Of a DNA stretch of 52,870 bases, positions 24,597-37,962 are shown one piece after another. The stretch lies in contig JAUREI010000006.1 of NCBI GenBank assembly GCA_030827515.1, positions 1-52,870 on the forward strand. The letters are read 5' to 3'. Under the pieces are notes generated by a model. That model saw only the letters and a list, made by a program, of their open reading frames with translations, was not told the origin of the DNA and searched no databases. Within the stretch, counting starts at the first letter, position 1. Each line of letters starts with the position of its first letter. The translations under genes and the position numbers were made by a program. The DNA comes from Prosthecobacter sp. (GTDB lineage: Bacteria > Verrucomicrobiota > Verrucomicrobiia > Verrucomicrobiales > Verrucomicrobiaceae).

Positions 24597-25793
24597 TCAA
24601 GGCGGGAGTTCGGATCCCCCCAGCCAGATGCGCCGGACCTTCAACTGCCGGTTGAGCAGCAGCAGATCGGCGCGTTTGCCCGGCTCCAGACTGCCGGTGT
24701 CACGGTCGATGCCGACGCGTTCGGCCGGGGTCAGCGAGGCCATGCGCACGACCTCGTGCAGAGGCGCGCCACTGGCCCGGAGCATGACCCTCACCATGTG
24801 GTCCATGCCCATGACCGAACTGGCCAGGCTGCCATTGGGCGCCCAGCCGACCCTGCCGTCGCTGTCAAACCAGCTGCCATCCCCCTCCGGACCAAAGCGA
24901 TAGCGGCCGGGCGGCAGGTCGAGCGCGCGGTTGGCGTCGGTGACCAGGCAGAGCCGCTGCGGCCCCTTCATTCGCCAGGCGAATCGCAGCAACTCGGGTG
25001 CCAGATGACAGCCATCGGCGATGACCTCCGTGCTCATCTCTTTTTCCGCGAGGACAAACTCGGCCATGCTGCCGCGCATGGGCACGCCGAGGCGCTGGCG
25101 CACCGAGGGCACCGAACTCATGGCGCACCAGAAGTGGTCGACATGACGCATGCCGGCCTTGAAAGCCGCGACCATCTCCGGCCAGCTGGCATTCGAGTGG
25201 CCGCAGGTGACCAGGCAGCGTTTGCGCCGGGCCGCATGGTAGAAATCCTGCGCGCCTGGCAGCTCGGCGGCGCAGGTGGCAATGCGGACCAATCCGTCGG
25301 CAAAGTAGCGGGCATACTCCCCGGGCCGAGGTTCGCGCCGGCCTTCGACACTGTGGCAGCCAACTTTGTCGGCCGCGAAGTAGGGGCCGTAAAGATGGAC
25401 GCCGGCAATGCGCGCGCCATCGGCGGCCGACCAAGCCTTTTGCACGGCCGCGCAGGCTCTGAGCATCGCACGGATCTGTGCGGGGGCGCCCGTCGTGGTG
25501 GTTGGGAAGAGGGTCGTTGTGCCGTGGCGGGCATGGGCACGGCAGGCTGTTCTCACGGCCGCCGCCGTGCCGTCCATGAAGTCGGCACCGTTGCCACCAT
25601 GCACGTGCAGATCCACGAATCCCGGTGCCAGAAGATGGTCGCGGGCATCGACGACTTGGGCTTCCTTTGGCCAGCGTTTGCGGGTTCGGCCGACCCATTC
25701 CAGCCGGCCGTCGCGGCAGAGCACGGCGCCGTCGTCGAGGATGCGGTCGGGCAGGACGACGCGGGCGCCGGCGAGGACAAGCAGGGAGTTCAT
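24597..25793 (-). CDS. NagA-like amidohydrolase (N-acetylglucosamine-6-phosphate deacetylase family), metal-site variant
   Basis: A 398-residue amidohydrolase with the NagA layout: DLHVHGGNGADFMDG (61-75), TCGHSNASWPEM (196-207, His199), HVDHFWCAMS (217-226, His220), VIADGCHLAPE (257-266, His263) and VTDA with Asp286. In NagA the motif HLEGP supplies the catalytic-metal Glu; here it reads HLYGP, with Tyr135 in that place. Either metal use differs or the substrate does, so the textbook deacetylation of GlcNAc-6-P is not assured. The gene follows the sulfatase by 5 bases, clearly one operon, and lies divergent from a NagB-like gene, so amino-sugar catabolism is the best context. Confidence 0.88.
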   Translation of the reverse strand: MNSLLVLAGARVVLPDRILDDGAVLCRDGRLEWVGRTRKRWPKEAQVVDARDHLLAPGFVDLHVHGGNGADFMDGTAAAVRTACRAHARHGTTTLFPTTTTGAPAQIRAMLRACAAVQKAWSAADGARIAGVHLYGPYFAADKVGCHSVEGRREPRPGEYARYFADGLVRIATCAAELPGAQDFYHAARRKRCLVTCGHSNASWPEMVAAFKAGMRHVDHFWCAMSSVPSVRQRLGVPMRGSMAEFVLAEKEMSTEVIADGCHLAPELLRFAWRMKGPQRLCLVTDANRALDLPPGRYRFGPEGDGSWFDSDGRVGWAPNGSLASSVMGMDHMVRVMLRASGAPLHEVVRMASLTPAERVGIDRDTGSLEPGKRADLLLLNRQLKVRRIWLGGSELPP

Positions 25794-27291: not shown

Positions 27292-29181
27292 ATGTCACGC
27301 CGCCCGCCCAACGAAGCCTTCGAGAAGATTCCCACCCAGATTTTCCCCGATTCCGCCGCCGCCGCCAAGGCGCTGGCCGCGGAGGTGCGGGGGCTCATCG
27401 AGGAGCGTGCCGCGCAGGGCAAAAATGCCGTGCTCGGCATGGCCACGGGTTCGACGCCGGTGCCCTTCTACCGCGAGTTGATCCGCCTGCACAAGGAGGA
27501 GGGCCTCAGCTTCAAGAATGTCATCACCTTCAATCTCGACGAGTACTACGGCCTCGGCTCGGACCATCCGGAGAGCTATGCCTGCTTCATGCGCGAGCAG
27601 TTGTTCGATCACATCGACATCCCCAAGGCCAACATCCACATTCCCAGCGGCACGGTGCCGGGCGACCAGGTTTTTGCCCACTGCCGGGAATACGAGGAGA
27701 GGATGGAGGCCGCCGGTGGCATTGACCTGCAGATTCTCGGCATCGGCCGAACGGGTCACATCGGCTTCAACGAACCCGGGTCCAGCCGCGACTCCCTGAC
27801 GCGCCGCATCACGCTGGACCGTGTCACCCGCCAGGACGCCGCCGCAGACTTCCGCGGCGAGGAAAACGTGCCGCACTTCGCCATCACCATGGGCGTCGGC
27901 ACCATTCTGCGCGGCAAGAAGCTGGTGCTCATGGCCTGGGGCGGAAACAAGGCCGGCATGGTCGCCAAGGCGGTGGAAGGTCCGGTCAGCGAGGCCATCT
28001 CCGCCTCCTTCCTGCAGGATCATCCGGCCGCGCGCTTTTTCATCGACAACGGTGCCGCGCGCGAGTTGACCCGGATCAAGTTGCCTTGGCTGGTCGGGCC
28101 GGTGTCGTGGACGCCCCGCGAGACCCGCCGTGCCGTTTGCTGGCAGGCCTTCCAGACCAAGCGTCCGGTGCTCAAGCTCACGGATGAGCACTACAACGAG
28201 CACGGTCTCAGCGACCTGCTTTCCGAGCAGGGACCGGCCTACCAGCTCAACATTCGCATTTTCAACCAGCTCCAACACACGATCACCGGCTGGCCAGGCG
28301 GCAAGCCGAACGAGGATGACACCTATCGTCCTGAGCGCGCCAGCCCCTACCCCAAGCGCGTGCTGATCTTTAGCCCGGAACCGCAGGATGCCGTCGTCGC
28401 CATGGGCGCGACGCTGGAGCGCCTTGTCGAGCAGGGTCATGAGGTCCGCCTGGTGGCGCTGACCAGCGGCAACCTGCGCGTGCCGGACAGCGAGGTTGAC
28501 AAGTTTGCCGGCACCCTTCAGGAGCTGGCCGGTGTCCTCGAGGAGGGCGTGGCCTGGCAGCGCCAGACCGCCTATGCCCGTGAAATCCTGCGCCTGCTCG
28601 AAGAGAAGGGCGAGTTCGGCGAGGATCCGCCGCCCGTCCGGCAGATCAAGTCGCTCGTCCTGCGCGGCGAGTTGCGCGACGCCGCGCAGGCCTGCAACCT
28701 GTCACACGACCAGCTCACCTTCCTTGACCTGCCGTTTTACGAGCAGGGTCGCTATCGCCGCTTCCGCAGCGGCAAGGCCGACATCGACCAGGTCGCCGCG
28801 CTGCTGTGCGAGGTGAGGCCGCATCAAATCTACACCACGGGTGACGCCGCCGATCCAAGCAGCGTTGCCGGCATTGGCTTCCGCATCCTTCAGGCGGCGC
28901 TCAAGTCCTGCGCGGGCGAGGAATGGGCCGGCACCTGCAGCCTCTGGCTCTACCGCGGCAAGGAGAAGGCGCTGGAACCGCATGAGATTGACATGGCCGT
29001 GCCGCTCAGCCCGATGCAGCTGGAACGCAAGGCGCGCGCCTTGTCCCGCTATGGTTCGCTGTCGACGTTAGAACTCGCCGCACCGGAGACCAACCGCGAG
29101 AACGCCCGCGCCTACGACGCCCTTGGTCTCGCCGAGTATGAGGCGATCGAGTGCTTCCAGCGCTGGGGCCGTGCCGGCTGA
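27292..29181 (+). CDS. Glucosamine-6-phosphate deaminase-like protein fused to a PIG-L/LmbE-like domain
   Basis: A 629-residue two-domain protein. Residues about 10-265 are a NagB-type sugar isomerase domain with GMATGSTPVPFY (49-60), NLDEYYGL (81-88, Asp83) and GRTGHIGFNEPGSS (152-165, His156, Glu161). The NagB catalytic VDGH reads RTGH, so Asp is Thr154. Residues about 355-620 follow the LmbE/PIG-L fold, but the metal motif PHPDD reads PEPQD (362-366), and the later HxxH region reads DPSSVAG, so the zinc ligands look lost. The same two-domain architecture is known from Bacteroides (BT_0258-like). The gene is divergent from the sulfatase gene. The start at 27292 precedes the conserved sequence; longer starts do not. 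Confidence 0.88.
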   Translation: MSRRPPNEAFEKIPTQIFPDSAAAAKALAAEVRGLIEERAAQGKNAVLGMATGSTPVPFYRELIRLHKEEGLSFKNVITFNLDEYYGLGSDHPESYACFMREQLFDHIDIPKANIHIPSGTVPGDQVFAHCREYEERMEAAGGIDLQILGIGRTGHIGFNEPGSSRDSLTRRITLDRVTRQDAAADFRGEENVPHFAITMGVGTILRGKKLVLMAWGGNKAGMVAKAVEGPVSEAISASFLQDHPAARFFIDNGAARELTRIKLPWLVGPVSWTPRETRRAVCWQAFQTKRPVLKLTDEHYNEHGLSDLLSEQGPAYQLNIRIFNQLQHTITGWPGGKPNEDDTYRPERASPYPKRVLIFSPEPQDAVVAMGATLERLVEQGHEVRLVALTSGNLRVPDSEVDKFAGTLQELAGVLEEGVAWQRQTAYAREILRLLEEKGEFGEDPPPVRQIKSLVLRGELRDAAQACNLSHDQLTFLDLPFYEQGRYRRFRSGKADIDQVAALLCEVRPHQIYTTGDAADPSSVAGIGFRILQAALKSCAGEEWAGTCSLWLYRGKEKALEPHEIDMAVPLSPMQLERKARALSRYGSLSTLELAAPETNRENARAYDALGLAEYEAIECFQRWGRAG

Positions 29182-31058: not shown

Positions 31059-33362
31059 CTACGGACGCCGGGCGGACGCTTTATCGGCGGAGGCGGCTTC
31101 GAAGACGGCGAGTTCCTTGCCATCGCTGCCACTCCAGACGCGCAGACGGCTGTCCTCGCCGCCGGCAACGAGCCACGCACCATCGGCGCTGCCGGCTGCG
31201 GCCTGCTGAAAGTCGGGCAGGCCGGCAAGAGCGCGGACCTCCGCACCCTCGTCAGTGACGATGCGCACACGGTTGTCGCCGGCCGAGGTGAGGATGCGAT
31301 TGCCGGCACCAAGGAACTGCAGCGAGGTCAGTTCCTTGGTCCAGCCTTCGATCTTCTTTTTGCGCTCGCCCGCGAGCAGGTCCCAAACCAGCACCACGCC
31401 GTCGGCACCGGCACTGGCCAGCACGCGGCCGTCGGCCCGAAAGCCCAGGCCGGCTACGTAGTGCGTGTGGCCTTCAAAAACTCTCAGGATCTTGCCGTCG
31501 GCGACGACACTGACCTTGGCCATCTTGTCGGCTGCCCCGGAGGCGAGTTGCCTGCCATCGGGCGAGAACGCCAGGCTGAGCACGGTGTCGTCGTGCCGGT
31601 CCTTCCAGGTCTGCAGCAGCCTGCCATCGGCGGGTGCAAACAGATGGAGGTCACCGCCGCGGGACAGTTCGCCACCGCCGGTGGCGAGCATCCTGCCGTC
31701 CGGGCTGAAGGCGAGGGCGTTGACGCGATCCACCAACAACTCGGGTGCAGCCTCGCCGCCAAGGGTGCGCTCAAGGCGCCAGCGCGGCCTGCCTCCGGTT
31801 TGCAGCCTGCGCACGGCCAGGAAGGCGCCGTCGGCGGCGGCCTGCAATTCCAAGCCGGTCTCACCGGAGGCTTCCTCAATCAGGCGGCCCGTGGCCGTGG
31901 CCCACACGCGCAGGGTGCCGTCGGCAAACAGGGCGGCGAGGCGCCGGCCATCCGGCGAGAAGGCGTTGGCGGTTGGCACCGGGTCGGACGCGGGTTTTGC
32001 CAGGGCGGCCAGGTAAGTGGCGGCCGCGTCCTGGGCTTTTTTCGCCGCTTCCGCCGCGCCGCGTGCGGCGGCAAGGCGTTTGGCGTTGTCCGTCTTGGCC
32101 CGGGTGATGCGCTGCACCTCCTCCTCGGCGTCGCGGCGGTTGCTTTCGGCGGCTTCGACCGCGGCACGCGCGGAATCGGCGTTGGTCTGGGCGGTGAGGC
32201 GTTTGTCCTCGAGGTCCTTGATCTCCTTCAGTCGCGCCGGGTCGGCGCGTGCGGCCGGTGGTTCGGCGGCGAGCTTGGCCTCGGCCTCGGCAAGCGCCTT
32301 GGAGGCCTCCTCCAGCTTGGCGGTTGCCGGCGGCACGGCCTTTTGCTTTTCCGGCACCGCCTTGGTCATGGCGGTGATGGCCTCGCGCGCCTTTTTGAGC
32401 AATTCGTCGAGGGCCTTGTCCTGGGCTTCGATGCGGGTCACCTCGGTTTTCTGGAAGGTCTCTTCGAGGCCCTGCGCTTCGCGCGTCCATTGCAGTTCAG
32501 CGCTGCGCCGTTGGGTTGCCAGTGTGCCACGGAGTTCCAGTGCAACCTTGCCCGTTGGCCGGTCCCAGAGCCGCACCGCGCCGTCGCTGCAGCCGCTCGC
32601 AAGCTGTTTGCCGTCGGGCGACAGCGCCGCCTGTCCGACTGTCGTCACCTTGGCGGCGGCGGCGAGTTTGCGGACCAGATCTGGATCGGCCGGGGCAACC
32701 GCTTTGGCGGCGGTGGCAGCGGCGGGTTCCAGACGCCAGAGCTTCACCTCACGGAAGCTGCCGCTGGCCAGTTGTGCGCCGTCGGGGCTGAAGGCAAGGG
32801 CTTGCACCAGCGCACGGTGGGCACCGCCGGCGCCGAGGGCGGGATCCATGAGTTCGGCGGCCAGTTCCTGGGTGGCGAGATCATAGACGAAGAGTCGGTT
32901 GCCGCGCCCGCAGGCGGCGTAGCGGCCATCGCGGGTGAGGGCAACCGCATAAATGGGCTGGACTCCCGGAGCGGGCGCCTGCCAGGCGACGACGCGTTCC
33001 TCGCGCTTGGTGGCCTTCGCGCCCTGGTCGATCCAGCGTTCGAGCAGGGCGATCTCCTCGTCGGTCAGTTTCACCGCGCCGGACTTGTTGTTGGCGGGTG
33101 GCATCTCGTAATCCTGGAGATGGCGCGCAGCGATGACGACGAGGCTGTCGGCACCCTTGCCGGGGATGAGCGCCGTGCCGGCCTCGCCACCCTGGCGCAT
33201 GAGCTCCGGGGTCTCCATGTTGAGGTCGGCCTTGGTCGTCGTCTTGTTGTGGCAGACGATGCAGTTGGCCTTCAAAAAGGGGAAGATGTCCCGGTAATAC
33301 TCGAGCTCCGCCGCGGCGGCGGGGGCGGTGAGCAACAGGGTGAAGAGCGCGGAACGGTGCAT
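31059..33362 (-). CDS. Exported cytochrome c-WD40 protein with coiled-coil insertion
   Basis: A 767-residue protein. Residues 1-18 are a signal peptide. A planctomycete-type cytochrome c domain follows, with heme motif CIVCH (Cys34, Cys37, His38) and the distal MPPANNKSG region. Then come WD40 repeats: FSPDGAQLASG, LSPDGKQLASG, FSPDGRRLAAL, FSPDGRMLATG, FSPDGRQLASG, FRADGRVLASAG and others, about ten blades. After the third or fourth repeat a helical coiled coil of roughly 130 residues (Ala/Glu/Lys-rich, about residues 285-420) interrupts the propeller. It is a periplasmic or surface scaffold that could carry an electron; the partner is unknown. The start at 33362 was picked for the signal peptide. 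It sits between the PPC-domain and DUF1501 genes. Confidence 0.92.
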   Translation of the reverse strand: MHRSALFTLLLTAPAAAAELEYYRDIFPFLKANCIVCHNKTTTKADLNMETPELMRQGGEAGTALIPGKGADSLVVIAARHLQDYEMPPANNKSGAVKLTDEEIALLERWIDQGAKATKREERVVAWQAPAPGVQPIYAVALTRDGRYAACGRGNRLFVYDLATQELAAELMDPALGAGGAHRALVQALAFSPDGAQLASGSFREVKLWRLEPAAATAAKAVAPADPDLVRKLAAAAKVTTVGQAALSPDGKQLASGCSDGAVRLWDRPTGKVALELRGTLATQRRSAELQWTREAQGLEETFQKTEVTRIEAQDKALDELLKKAREAITAMTKAVPEKQKAVPPATAKLEEASKALAEAEAKLAAEPPAARADPARLKEIKDLEDKRLTAQTNADSARAAVEAAESNRRDAEEEVQRITRAKTDNAKRLAAARGAAEAAKKAQDAAATYLAALAKPASDPVPTANAFSPDGRRLAALFADGTLRVWATATGRLIEEASGETGLELQAAADGAFLAVRRLQTGGRPRWRLERTLGGEAAPELLVDRVNALAFSPDGRMLATGGGELSRGGDLHLFAPADGRLLQTWKDRHDDTVLSLAFSPDGRQLASGAADKMAKVSVVADGKILRVFEGHTHYVAGLGFRADGRVLASAGADGVVLVWDLLAGERKKKIEGWTKELTSLQFLGAGNRILTSAGDNRVRIVTDEGAEVRALAGLPDFQQAAAGSADGAWLVAGGEDSRLRVWSGSDGKELAVFEAASADKASARRP

Positions 33363-33476
33363 GGTCAGGCACAGACTACGCACCGGCACAGCCCGGCTCT
33401 TCAGTCTTTCCTTTGCGCTGGCGGGCAGTCTCAGGGGCATGGCGGGTTTGCCGGTGAGCGCAAGACGGGACAAGGC

Positions 33477-35675
33477 TCACTTCGCCGCAGTGGCCGGCGC
33501 AGCTTCAAGCACGCGCAAACGGATGGGCTGCGACACGAGAATATCGACCGTATCCTTGGGTTCGGCGGCGCTGGACACCGCCTTCATGCGGCTGGCGGCG
33601 GCTGCCATGGCCGCCTCGGCCTGCTTCTGTTTTTCGGCGGCGGTCTTGGCGGCGGCGGCATCGGTGGCGGCAAGCTGCTGGGCGGCGGCAGCCGCTGCGG
33701 CCAGCCGTTCCTCGGCCTTCTTCTGCTCGGCTTCGGCGAGCGGCAGGGCGGCGGGATTGTAGCGGTACTTGCTGACGGCGCTTCCGTACAGCGCCAGAGT
33801 GTGTTCACCGGGTGTCGTCTTCAGCGCGGCGAGATCGAGCACCAGTTCGGCGGTTTCCGCCTTGATGGGGATCTCCAGCTCCTTGAGGGCGGTGAAGCCA
33901 TCGCCCTGTCCCTTCAGCTTGATCGTCGCCCCGGTGAAGTCGTTGCGCCAGGTCAGTCGCAGCGGGATTTTCAGAGTTTCGCCGGCGCGCGCCTCGAAGA
34001 CCTTGTCCTCGGCCAGGGCGACGGTCAGCGGCGCCTCCTCGGAGTCGGTGACCGAGACCGGGAAATCAGCGAGCAGGCGCGGGGCAGGGATCTCCTGCTT
34101 GGCGTCCTTGACCGGCCATTCCATGCTGGCGAGCCGGCAGGGGCGGCTGACCTCGGCGTTGCCGATGACGGCATGGCCGCGCAGTTGCGCCTGGCTGAAG
34201 CCGCGCGGCGCGTTGACGTCGGCCGTCAGCACGAGATGACCGACGCTCTTGCCCTTGCCGATGCGCAGGCCGGTGGCGCGCACGCCGGGGGGCAGGTTGT
34301 CGGCCTCGATTTCAATGGGTCCGTCAAAGCCGTCCCGGCGCTGGACGACGACCTCGAACAGGCGGGCATCGCCCCGGCGCAGGGCGGCCGGTTTCGAGAG
34401 TGCGGCACGGTCGCCGTTGCGCAGGGTCATATGCACGGCCCACGCGGCGAGGGAAAAGTCGGGCGCGGCGCGACGAATGACGAGGCGATAGATGTTGCCG
34501 GGCTCGTTGCGCGTGCCGCCGAAGAGGTCACGCACCTGCAGGCGGTAGGTGCCGTCCGCCTTGATTTCGAAGGAACCGTTGACGTCGGGGGAACCGGCGT
34601 TGTAGGGCGGGCCGTCATAGGAGTAGCCGTTGCTGGAAACCTTCATCGGCGGAGCGATGTCGTGAAGTTCGGCGACATCGGTCAGCTTTTCGCCGTCGGC
34701 CGTCTTCTCGACCTGCTGAACGAGCACGAAGGGATCGGTGTTCAGGCCAAGACGTTCGGAGGCAACCTCCACCCACCAGACCTCGCCCTTCTTGGCGGCG
34801 AACTCATAGGTGTCGACATCGGCTGCCGGGAAGAAACTGCCGGCGAGGTCGCAGGGCAGGGTGATCTTCTGGGCTTCGGAAGCGGTATGGTTCGGCTCGT
34901 TCTCGGCAAGAGCGGCGCGCTCCGGCAGGCCGACGGGCGGCCACGACATGGCGCTGACCGTCTGCGTGCGCGCCTGCACCGGCGGCGTCGCGTCGGTGGC
35001 GGCTTCCTGCACGGCGAGGCGGTAGAAATGGCGTTCGCCACCCTGATAGGTGAGGTCATGCACCTTGATGACATAGGTGCCGTCGGCCGGCGGGGTGAAA
35101 TCGAGTGGCCCACCGGTGCGGTTGACCTTGAGATCGCGACCTTCGGCGTCGGCAAGGGCAAGCACGGGGGTCAGGCGGGAATCCAGGCCGACCGCGGCGC
35201 AGTCGATGACCAGGAGGCGGTCCTTGGCGGCCTGGAAGCGGTAGTAGTCAACCGCGCGCCGGGTCATCGTCGCATTGCAGACCGAACCGACCTTCAACTC
35301 CAGCGCGGTCTCAAGGCTGTTGTTGGGCTTGGCGCGGATGATCTCGGACAGGGGGCCGACACTGAAGGCTCGCGCCGAGGAGACTCCGAGGCGGCAGAGC
35401 ACACGCGCATCATGCACGCCTGCGGGAGCATCGGCGGCGATGTCGACGAGGAACTTGTTCTCGTTGCCCGGGACGGGACGGGCCTGCAGGTGCGGGCTGG
35501 AGAAGACCAGGGCCTGGACCTCCTCAAGGTGTTCGCCAGTGAGGGTCACCTCGACCGTCGAGCCGGCCTGGCCGCCCATGGGTTGCAGGGTGAGCAGGCG
35601 CGGCAGCGGCAGCGTGACCTGCTGGGCGAAGGCGGGCGCGGCGAGCAGCAGAAGGCAGAGAACGCGAAGGGTCAT
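33477..35675 (-). CDS. Exported PPC/IPT-domain protein with helical hairpin
   Basis: A 732-residue exported protein: signal peptide (1-17, ending APAFAQ), an IPT/TIG-like domain (about 25-105, MGGQAGSTVEVTLTGEHLEEV), and two bacterial pre-peptidase C-terminal (PPC) beta domains (about 110-215, VDYYRFQAAKDRLLVIDCAA; about 250-390, DVDTYEFAAKKGEVWWVEV). Further Ig-like sheets follow. Near the C-terminus an Ala/Glu/Lys/Gln-rich coiled coil (about 640-700) is inserted before the last strand VDILVSQPIRLRV. It is a typical companion of DUF1549/DUF1501 genes and has no recognisable catalytic site. Adhesion or assembly is the likely role, by inference. Start chosen for the signal peptide. Confidence 0.9.
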   Translation of the reverse strand: MTLRVLCLLLLAAPAFAQQVTLPLPRLLTLQPMGGQAGSTVEVTLTGEHLEEVQALVFSSPHLQARPVPGNENKFLVDIAADAPAGVHDARVLCRLGVSSARAFSVGPLSEIIRAKPNNSLETALELKVGSVCNATMTRRAVDYYRFQAAKDRLLVIDCAAVGLDSRLTPVLALADAEGRDLKVNRTGGPLDFTPPADGTYVIKVHDLTYQGGERHFYRLAVQEAATDATPPVQARTQTVSAMSWPPVGLPERAALAENEPNHTASEAQKITLPCDLAGSFFPAADVDTYEFAAKKGEVWWVEVASERLGLNTDPFVLVQQVEKTADGEKLTDVAELHDIAPPMKVSSNGYSYDGPPYNAGSPDVNGSFEIKADGTYRLQVRDLFGGTRNEPGNIYRLVIRRAAPDFSLAAWAVHMTLRNGDRAALSKPAALRRGDARLFEVVVQRRDGFDGPIEIEADNLPPGVRATGLRIGKGKSVGHLVLTADVNAPRGFSQAQLRGHAVIGNAEVSRPCRLASMEWPVKDAKQEIPAPRLLADFPVSVTDSEEAPLTVALAEDKVFEARAGETLKIPLRLTWRNDFTGATIKLKGQGDGFTALKELEIPIKAETAELVLDLAALKTTPGEHTLALYGSAVSKYRYNPAALPLAEAEQKKAEERLAAAAAAAQQLAATDAAAAKTAAEKQKQAEAAMAAAASRMKAVSSAAEPKDTVDILVSQPIRLRVLEAAPATAAK

Positions 35676-35751
35676 GACCGCAAACCTACGCAACTGGCAG
35701 GCCCGTCCGTTCAAAGCCGCGCCGATTCAGCCATGCGCCAGTCATGAATCC

Positions 35752-37962
35752 TCAGTGATTGAAGAGGAACTCCTTGGTGTTGACCAGGGCCCAGATGAGA
35801 TCCTCGTAGCCCTGGCGGCGCGCCTGCTGGGAGTCGAGAGGTTTGCCGGTGCTGTCGGTGCGCGGTTTGGCCAAATGCGCCTCGGCCAGACGCACTTCCT
35901 CGGCCTCCGGTTCACGGGCATAGGCGGCGAGGTAGAGTTCGCGGATGCGTTTGGGCTCGGGCATTTCAGCCTTGCTCAGGGTCTCGGCGCGGCCCCCGGC
36001 TGCCGTCAGCTTGGTCTTGACGTCGGCGGCGTTCATGAGGTGCAGGCTCTGCGCGAGACTGGCGGTCTGCACGCGTTCGCACTCGCAGACGCTGGCGCCC
36101 TCGGGCCGGCCGAAGACCTTCAGGAAGGGCGAGGCGCGGTTGTAGCTGTTGTCGGGCAGCGACACCGCGCGCGTGCCGGCGGGCAGGTCGGCAAAATCGG
36201 ATTTTGAGCCGGCAACGCCGTCGATGCTGTCAAGCAGGACCTCGGCGGTCAGGCGCTTCGGGTAGTAGCGTGAGAAATTCTGGGTGTCGGCGAGGTTGTG
36301 TTCGTTCGGTTCGGAGCCCAGTTGGTAGGAGTGGCTTTGCACGATCTGGCGAACCAGATCCTTGAGGTCGAAGCCGCTGCTGACAAAATGAGCGGCCAGG
36401 GCGTCCAGCAACTCCGGGTTGCTCTCCGGATTGCTGTCGCGGATGTCGTCCTCGGGTTCAATGAGACCGCGCTTGAAAAAGTGCTTCCAGTAGCGGTTGA
36501 CCAGAGAGCGCGCAAAGAAGGGGTTGGAAGGGTCGCCCATCCAGTCGGCGAGCCGTAGGCGCGGATCTTCATCCGGGGGAATGTCGAGCGTCGGCTGGCC
36601 CAGGGCGGCCGGACGCACCGGCTCGCGCGTCTTCTTGTTTTCGATCTGGGCGATGCCGCGCTTGTGGAAGATGAGGTCCTCGTTGGCGACCGCGGTCGGC
36701 TTGCGGCCGATCTGGCTGAAGAAGGCGGCGAAGCTGTAGTAGTCGTGCTGGCTCCAGCGCTCGAAGGGATGGTGATGGCACTGGGCGCAGTTCATGCGCA
36801 CGCCGAGGAAGAGCTGGGCGACATCCTCCAACTGCTGCACGGGTTCCTTGACGCGCTTGTACCATGCCACCGGCGGGTTGGCGACGATGGTGCCGGTGGA
36901 GGCGAGAATCTGGCGGACGATCTGGTCGTAGGGTGTGTTGGCCAGCAGGCTGTCGCGCATCCAGGCATGGAAGGCGAAGTTGGCGGTGATGTCGGCGGCG
37001 GCGTCACGCTTGTTCTTGAGCAGGGCGGTCCACTTGTTGGCAAACCAGTCGGCGTAGTCCGGGCTGGCGAGCAGGGTGTTGGTGAGGCGGGCGCGCTTGT
37101 CGGGCTCGCGGCTGGCGAGGAAGGCCTGCGTTTCCTCAAGCGTCGGCAGGCGGCCGGCGAGGTCGAGGCTGACCCGGCGCAGGAAGGTGGAGTCATCGCA
37201 GAGCGCCGAGGGAGGGATGCCGAGGCGCTTCAGATTGGCGAAGACATGCCGGTCGATGAAGTTTTTTTCCGGTGGCAGCGACTCGACCGGCGCGCCGAGG
37301 GGAATGGCGGCGCGGAAGACGGTGACCCGGCCGGAGTAGCGGACCATGACGGCGACGTTGCCCGGAAGGTCGAGGGTTCGCACCAGACCGTGTTCATCCG
37401 CCTCGGCCATGGCCTTGTCATTCGCTTCATACAGCGCCCTGCGGGTGACGTCGCGCGTGCTGCCGTCGCTGTAGCGGGCGGTGACCTTGAGCTGGCGGCT
37501 TGCCCCGGGGGCCAGAGGGGCCTCGGCGGGCTCGACTTCGAGGCTGGAAAGCACCGGATCCTCCGGCTGGCCGTAGGGCATGCCGGCACTGATCCAGCGT
37601 ACCAGGGCGTCGTATTCCTCGGAGCCGGGGTCCAGCTTCTTGCCGCCGCCGTGGGGCACGAGATTGGCGGCTTTCAGCACGAGCAGGCTCTGCTCGGGCG
37701 CCGGCGGGAACACGCGGCGGCCCTTGGCTTCCTTGACGATGTGCTCGTAGTCCTCCTGCGGCTCGAAGCCGAGCAACGACAGGCGGAAGCCGCGCTGGCC
37801 GACGTCGGCCTTGGCATGGCAGGCCCCGGAATTGCAGTCGGCCTTGGTCAGGATGGGAACGATGTCGTTGACGAAGTGCGGCGGCGGGCGCGTCGCCTCC
37901 GCCGCGCCGCCCGGGGCGGTGGCGAGGATCAGCAGGGCTGCGGCGCGGAGGGCCAGTCTCAT
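35752..37962 (-). CDS. DUF1549/DUF1553 cytochrome-like protein with Big_2 domain
   Basis: A 736-residue exported protein: signal peptide (1-21), an N-terminal cytochrome-c-like domain with CNSGACH (Cys43, Cys48, His49; a CX4CH spacing), a bacterial Ig-like Big_2 segment (about 135-230, YSDGSTRDVTRRALYEAND), DUF1549 (about 238-450) holding a canonical CAQCH followed by HHPFERWSQHDYYSFAAFF, and DUF1553 (about 465-730, NPFFARSLVNRYWKHFFKRGL). The family is unique to the PVC group and its reaction is unknown. The mature protein could bind two hemes. It is the second gene of the minus-strand series, 56 bases after the dehydrogenase gene and 76 before the PPC gene. Confidence 0.95.
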   Translation of the reverse strand: MRLALRAAALLILATAPGGAAEATRPPPHFVNDIVPILTKADCNSGACHAKADVGQRGFRLSLLGFEPQEDYEHIVKEAKGRRVFPPAPEQSLLVLKAANLVPHGGGKKLDPGSEEYDALVRWISAGMPYGQPEDPVLSSLEVEPAEAPLAPGASRQLKVTARYSDGSTRDVTRRALYEANDKAMAEADEHGLVRTLDLPGNVAVMVRYSGRVTVFRAAIPLGAPVESLPPEKNFIDRHVFANLKRLGIPPSALCDDSTFLRRVSLDLAGRLPTLEETQAFLASREPDKRARLTNTLLASPDYADWFANKWTALLKNKRDAAADITANFAFHAWMRDSLLANTPYDQIVRQILASTGTIVANPPVAWYKRVKEPVQQLEDVAQLFLGVRMNCAQCHHHPFERWSQHDYYSFAAFFSQIGRKPTAVANEDLIFHKRGIAQIENKKTREPVRPAALGQPTLDIPPDEDPRLRLADWMGDPSNPFFARSLVNRYWKHFFKRGLIEPEDDIRDSNPESNPELLDALAAHFVSSGFDLKDLVRQIVQSHSYQLGSEPNEHNLADTQNFSRYYPKRLTAEVLLDSIDGVAGSKSDFADLPAGTRAVSLPDNSYNRASPFLKVFGRPEGASVCECERVQTASLAQSLHLMNAADVKTKLTAAGGRAETLSKAEMPEPKRIRELYLAAYAREPEAEEVRLAEAHLAKPRTDSTGKPLDSQQARRQGYEDLIWALVNTKEFLFNH

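Follow-up and report, generated by a model that had tools for sequence, protein, structure and literature searches.

The window, by which we mean the whole 52,870-nucleotide stretch of Prosthecobacter sp. DNA analysed here, carries a fused gene whose product consists of a NagB-like half joined by a linker to a PIG-L/LmbE-like half (Table 1). The protein scores 759.8 bits against NF002557/PRK02122 over residues 7-625 (cut-off 384) and thus belongs to that family. In the N-terminal half, residues 19-237 match the glucosamine-6-phosphate isomerase family above its curated cut-off, and the NagB equivalog model TIGR00502 is matched with 249.9 bits (cut-off 236.9). Pfam PIG-L (PF02585) covers residues 358-519 of the C-terminal half with 39.5 bits (gathering cut-off 28.2). 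The boundary of this part was set at residue 355, which places position 28360, the start of codon 357, two codons inside it.

Table 1. Coordinates in the window of the fused gene, its parts and motifs, and other genes of the stretch.
Feature	Position	Strand	Description
Fused NagB-PIG-L gene	27292..29181	+	ATG at 27292, stop ends at 29181; 629 aa
NagB half, residues 1-260	27292..28071	+	D83, H156 and E161 kept
Linker, residues 261-354	28072..28353	+	TITGWPGGKP; strongly conserved in E-type and H-type
PIG-L/LmbE half, residues 355-629	28354..29178	+	catalytic site altered
PEPQD (362-366), replacing PHPDD	28375..28389	+	E363 for His ligand, Q365 for base, D366 ligand kept
DPSSVAG (521-527), replacing DPHGTHR	28852..28872	+	S523 and A526 for the two His
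NagA-like protein	24597..25793	-	215.7 bits, just below the nagA cut-off of 225.65
Planctomycete-cytochrome/WD40, PPC-domain and DUF1549/DUF1553 proteins in a row	31059..37962	-	

In the NagA-like protein of the window, the conserved HxEGPF motif reads HLYGPY, so that Tyr replaces the Glu that is a metal ligand in NagA. The Tyr recurs in three relatives (L211-L213; 63-72% identity), and 26 more distant NagA-like relatives (L214-L239) have Glu at this position. A conserved pairing of the fusion with the neighbouring NagA-like and sulfatase genes is not supported, because in genome G017 the NagA-like/sulfatase pair lies on a different contig from the fused gene.

The catalytic site of LmbE-type proteins consists of an HXD1D2 motif and a distant His, with D1 serving as the base, as set out in a review (PMC4101496). 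The window protein, in which SPEPQDA occupies residues 361-367, lacks this motif. Measured against the rule as given there, both His ligands are gone (E363 and A526) and the base has become Q365, whereas D2 is kept as D366. Profile alignment further places S523 opposite His110 of Bacillus cereus BshB (His144 of MshB) and L457 opposite BshB Arg53 (MshB Arg68). The earlier note had read PEPQD and DPSSVAG correctly, but its statement that all recognizable zinc ligands were lost goes too far: the changes affect two of the three ligands, the base and two positions that bind substrate, but D366 remains. As judged from sequence, loss of deacetylase chemistry from the PIG-L half is well supported. D366 and E363 might nonetheless bind a metal.

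Chance, base error and assembly error are ruled out as the source of the altered motif, because all 29 same-genus relatives in the first set have it, and it also recurs across the order and the class. Below, E-type denotes the altered PIG-L site of the Verrucomicrobiota clade, and H-type a site reading SPHPDDD and DPHGTH. In a sample of the window's order, 169 of 189 genomes have a relative; in 111 of them, by hand count, the match reaches into the PIG-L half, and all 78 motifs read among these show the same general kind of alteration. At class level we found 18 E-type and 5 H-type loci, as well as 7 further H-type genes; one genome (G253) has both, as E-type L103 and H-type L311. The 80 named loci comprise 28 of E-type and 52 of H-type. 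By record titles, E-type rows are Verrucomicrobiota and H-type rows are Bacteroidota and allied phyla. Viral contigs gave 109 pattern matches, none of them a relative.

For site scoring, a full-length set was assembled that leaves out L001-L005, L096-L102 and L206-L239 (paralogues, duplicates and NagA loci) as well as rows with fewer than 300 aligned residues. Merging identical rows reduced 260 to 248, and four short rows were dropped. The resulting 244 distinct sequences, unevenly sampled in that one genus supplies many rows, divide into 118 with both sites kept, 116 with the PIG-L site lost, 10 with the NagB site lost and none with both lost. The 116 consist of 114 E-type rows, L252, which is an independent loss on another branch, and L200, whose status reflects an alignment gap and which was excluded from the tree and the E-type set. 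L252 (genome G824) is an H-type relative that reads SPHPADD and DPHGTYR; a second copy is present in the same genome.

A tree of 56 representatives, computed without the motif columns by a quick method (LG+G4, unrooted), groups all 25 E-type rows together to the same side of a branch whose SH-aLRT is 100. The PIG-L label requires two changes on this tree, the second being L252, and NagB loss requires three. E-type forms a single ancient clade within Verrucomicrobiota, with members in at least two orders, and we infer that the H form is ancestral because other LmbE enzymes carry it. The idea of a domain that died within the family is not supported in the sense of a recent or local event: a single ancient branch holds all E-type representatives, which share a near-invariant Glu and further E-type-specific positions, and recent decay is ruled out by the tree, these positions and the dN/dS values given below.

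Two side observations concern individual E-type records. Genome G008, from the same genus as the window, has two E-type copies (L010 and L051) with 84% and 70% identity to that of the window. Two metagenome-assembled records titled Akkermansia muciniphila (L126 and L136) carry E-type fusions; the species label of L126 looks wrong, because its genome is 6.2 Mb.

When PHPDD conservation is scored by clade, as had been proposed, the motif is kept in H-type, but in the E-type clade Glu replaces the His in 113 of 114 rows (Asp in the other), or in 48 of 49 once the rows are thinned at 75% identity. At positions 365 and 526 the residue varies freely among E-type rows, and Asp stands at 366 in 103 of the 116 PIG-L-lost rows. 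Six further positions (R450, Y488, R489, F491, E565 and D609) are conserved in E-type and not in H-type. The two halves differ in how tightly they are held: by mean top frequency, E-type exceeds H-type in the NagB half (0.714 versus 0.660) and falls below it in the PIG-L half (0.568 versus 0.657).

Purifying selection on the PIG-L half is strong, with dN/dS of 0.007-0.18 in the 30 closest pairs. These pairs are quoted because the medians over all 209 (0.16 for PIG-L, 0.10 for NagB) include near-saturated ones; dN/dS is higher in the PIG-L half than in the NagB half in 168 of the 209, a list with some repeated pairs where the same assembly stands under two records. The expectation that the fold would be retained is likewise borne out at the level of prediction. 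The AlphaFold model of the window protein has a pLDDT of 90.5, and that of an H-type protein from Hymenobacter (L160) is also confident (88.6). The predicted PIG-L half matches GalB, BshB (Z = 22.3), diacetylchitobiose deacetylase and MshB with Z scores of 17.9-22.4, as expected for an LmbE fold. With the predicted fold kept and the sequence under purifying selection, the PIG-L half therefore appears to have a job other than deacetylation, and the fact that an acidic residue is fixed where the ligand used to be modestly favours binding over a plain scaffold.

The NagB half matches solved NagB structures well, including E. coli NagB (1dea, Z = 37.6) and 2bkv (Z = 37.5). D83, H156 and E161 correspond to what we take to be Asp72, His143 and Glu148 of the E. 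coli enzyme. The window protein has this catalytic set, as do all 116 PIG-L-lost rows. These residues suggest that it is a glucosamine-6-phosphate deaminase; against this counts the position of E. coli Arg172, presumably a phosphate ligand, which is not Arg in the window's NagB subfamily.

The opposite loss also occurs. The ten NagB-lost sequences, among them Bacteroides, Prevotella, Marinilabiliaceae and Chlorobiota records, have other residues in place of the Asp72 and/or His143 equivalents (Y, M, S or N for the former, N or Q for the latter), with PHPDDD and DPHGTH kept. Two further named records, from B. finegoldii (L318) and Parabacteroides distasonis (L319), have lost the NagB site likewise. 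Most sampled Bacteroidota relatives keep both sites. The Bacteroides relatives with PHPDD that the earlier note mentioned do exist (L202 and L205, together with L318 and L319), but they are not simply the intact form, as their NagB residues are lost. These four fusions adjoin amidohydrolase or nagA genes, and the two annotated records among them are labelled glucosamine-6-phosphate deaminase.

Within the window's order, two families (f2 and f6) have a NagB without a PIG-L domain in 11 of 11 loci inspected. These standalone NagBs show 59-65% identity to the NagB half of the window, with which they have in common IGRTGHIGFNEPG (one has GA) and a TRxDAxxxF stretch. Purified Akkermansia muciniphila NagB (Amuc_1822) deaminates GlcN-6-P and is not activated by GlcNAc-6-P (PMC5902328). 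This enzyme is probably one of the standalone relatives. The forward primer given there matches, with one mismatch, upstream of the NagB gene in two loci of genus g12 (f2); since the primer match and the gene lie in different frames, the identification of Amuc_1822 with the g12 protein is suggestive only.

Other proteins may supply the deacetylation. The window's genome has four other PIG-L matches, three of which combine HPDD, HYDD or HQDD with HPDH or HDTH; the fourth has HPDD, its second motif not being found by the pattern used. One of the four, a separate LmbE-type protein (G000:C172:24249-25130), has SHQDDLE and HDTH, and its group lies just downstream of many E-type genes. Without correction for kinship, a gene of this group is present in the flank of 10 of the 28 named E-type loci (clustering had found 8) versus none of the 52 H-type loci. 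By hand measurement, likewise uncorrected, such a gene and the fusion share a strand and are no more than 1.5 kb apart in 14 of the 18 E-type genomes found at class level beyond the window's family; among H-only genomes, one of ten has it within 1.6 kb. Adjacency is frequent in Opitutales; in the window's own family, the gene is not adjacent to the fusion.

In a phylum sample of 387 genomes, with kinship ignored, the LmbE-type gene occurs in every one of the 25 E-type genomes, in 8 of 10 H-only genomes and in 77 of 352 with neither; the gene is thus not specific to E-type, because most H-only genomes also have one. Hand counts in the order sample, again ignoring kinship, find it in 70 of 111 genomes with the fusion (52 of 54 in the window's family, 18 of 57 elsewhere), as against 20 of 78 genomes that have no fused gene. 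Of the 49 named genomes, 20 of 28 with E-type have it versus none of the 21 others, kinship once more set aside. Recent duplication was rejected as its origin: the window's PIG-L half has no significant BLAST match to it (best E = 0.75), and H-type PIG-L domains match it weakly (best E = 6e-4).

NagA is the other candidate. Four of the eight named E-type genomes that lack the LmbE-type gene have a NagA above the curated cut-off, and four have neither. Across all 28, four have NagA only, one has both, 19 have LmbE only and four have neither; the two genes tend to exclude each other (Fisher p = 0.015, kinship ignored). NagA-like matches at E ≤ 1e-30 are more widespread (19 of 28 E-type, 5 of 15 both-intact and 2 of 6 NagB-lost genomes). 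A simple rule that E-type genomes have NagA is only partly supported, as the curated cut-off is exceeded in 5 of 28.

In several Opitutales loci, a conserved protein of ~480 residues (L138:9000-10454) is often found between the fusion and the LmbE gene. It gave no Pfam match and no PDB match; its DxGGS and NDGE motifs suggest that it is possibly an ASKHA/ROK sugar kinase. Kinase, deacetylase and deaminase would then form a GlcNAc route with putative substrates.

We consider it fairly probable that the window protein is a deaminase with a maintained pseudo-deacetylase domain, its PIG-L half no longer hydrolysing and deacetylation taking place in trans. The ancestor would probably have been bifunctional, with the PIG-L half deacetylating an N-acetylglucosamine-type substrate, plausibly GlcNAc-6-P, and the NagB half converting GlcN-6-P to fructose-6-P and ammonia. 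A rebuilding of the PIG-L site took place in one ancient Verrucomicrobiota clade, its His giving way to a near-invariant Glu and the base and the last His ligand becoming free to drift. The domain may have been kept because it binds some ligand or partner by which the NagB half is controlled or organized, and its present role would be that of a sensor, dock or scaffold. Deacetylation itself could be carried out by the separate intact LmbE-type protein, often encoded adjacent to the fusion, or by NagA; the genes are present, and their activity is presumed. A more specific form of this idea, which we put forward tentatively and with low expectation, is that the PIG-L half is a pseudoenzyme partner that docks or senses for the separate LmbE-type deacetylase, or senses GlcNAc-6-P, and so links deacetylation in trans with the deaminase half. 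If this were true, the family would amount to a natural experiment on a bifunctional enzyme that retires either half, never both.

That the PIG-L half is only a structural prop for oligomerization or stability, with neither ligand nor partner, is rather unlikely. The conservation of linker and fold in both E-type and H-type would fit, as would the ability of f2 and f6 to manage with a NagB of the same subfamily that has no PIG-L domain. However, a prop would hardly require that a Glu be conserved where the ligand once stood when nearby parts of the site drift, and the several fixed E-type-specific positions exceed its needs. We regard as improbable a re-tooling of the site for different chemistry, hinted at by the hydratase GalB, which has the same fold. 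GalB (5cgz), tied with BshB, ranks with the top fold matches for the PIG-L half, and E363, R450, Y488, R489, F491 and E565 are newly fixed positions, but 365, 366 and 526 vary in E-type, unlike a shared new catalytic set, and GalB is not found by sequence at E ≤ 10.

The remaining two readings carry little weight. A decaying relic on its way to loss would be consistent with the looser PIG-L half of E-type and with the f2 and f6 loci that have no such domain; low dN/dS, already unfavourable to it, the fixed Glu and the spread over at least two orders make it very doubtful. Retained deacetylase activity, with Glu and Asp as ligands, is scarcely credible: E363 and D366 are both acidic, and most PIG-L-lost rows keep the Asp, yet there is no third ligand, base or oxyanion-side His, and the MshB Arg68 equivalent is Leu in the window. 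The preferred reading remains a deaminase bearing a maintained, non-hydrolysing PIG-L domain.

A family in which a different half is retired in each phylum, with none of 244 sequences having lost both, offers a clean setting for asking why dead enzyme domains are kept. It also presents an annotation problem, as Bacteroides and Parabacteroides records are labelled glucosamine-6-phosphate deaminase without the deaminase residues, and it would be unsafe to label E-type members as deacetylases. As a deacetylase other than NagA that would serve amino-sugar use in Verrucomicrobiota, the separate LmbE-type protein is a candidate. We found no open-access description of the E-type site, the reciprocal loss or the NagB-PIG-L fusion, most subscription papers lying outside the search; 'bt0258' appeared only as a table entry in the open-access paper searched.

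The NagB-PIG-L fusion is already known as an annotated family, and its H-type members (Bacteroidota and some Opitutaceae-like genomes) have the same halves and linker as the window protein, with a full-length identity of about 44-56%. SPHPDDD and DPHGTH are present in these members and absent from the window and its clade. BshB and MshB (Z = 17.9-18.3 for the latter) have the fold of the PIG-L half and possess HXDD and His, in contrast to EXQD and no His in the window. GalB resembles this half by fold only (Z = 22.4), with no sequence match to the window at E ≤ 10, and provides a precedent for another reaction. The deaminase Amuc_1822 (PMC5902328) compares with the standalone NagBs of the order's small-genome family, with which it is presumably identical; these share the window's active-site signature but, unlike the window, have no PIG-L half. 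The four Bacteroides/Parabacteroides fusions have the same architecture with one half altered, as in the window. There, however, the altered half is NagB and the PIG-L residues are kept, the reverse of the arrangement in the window.
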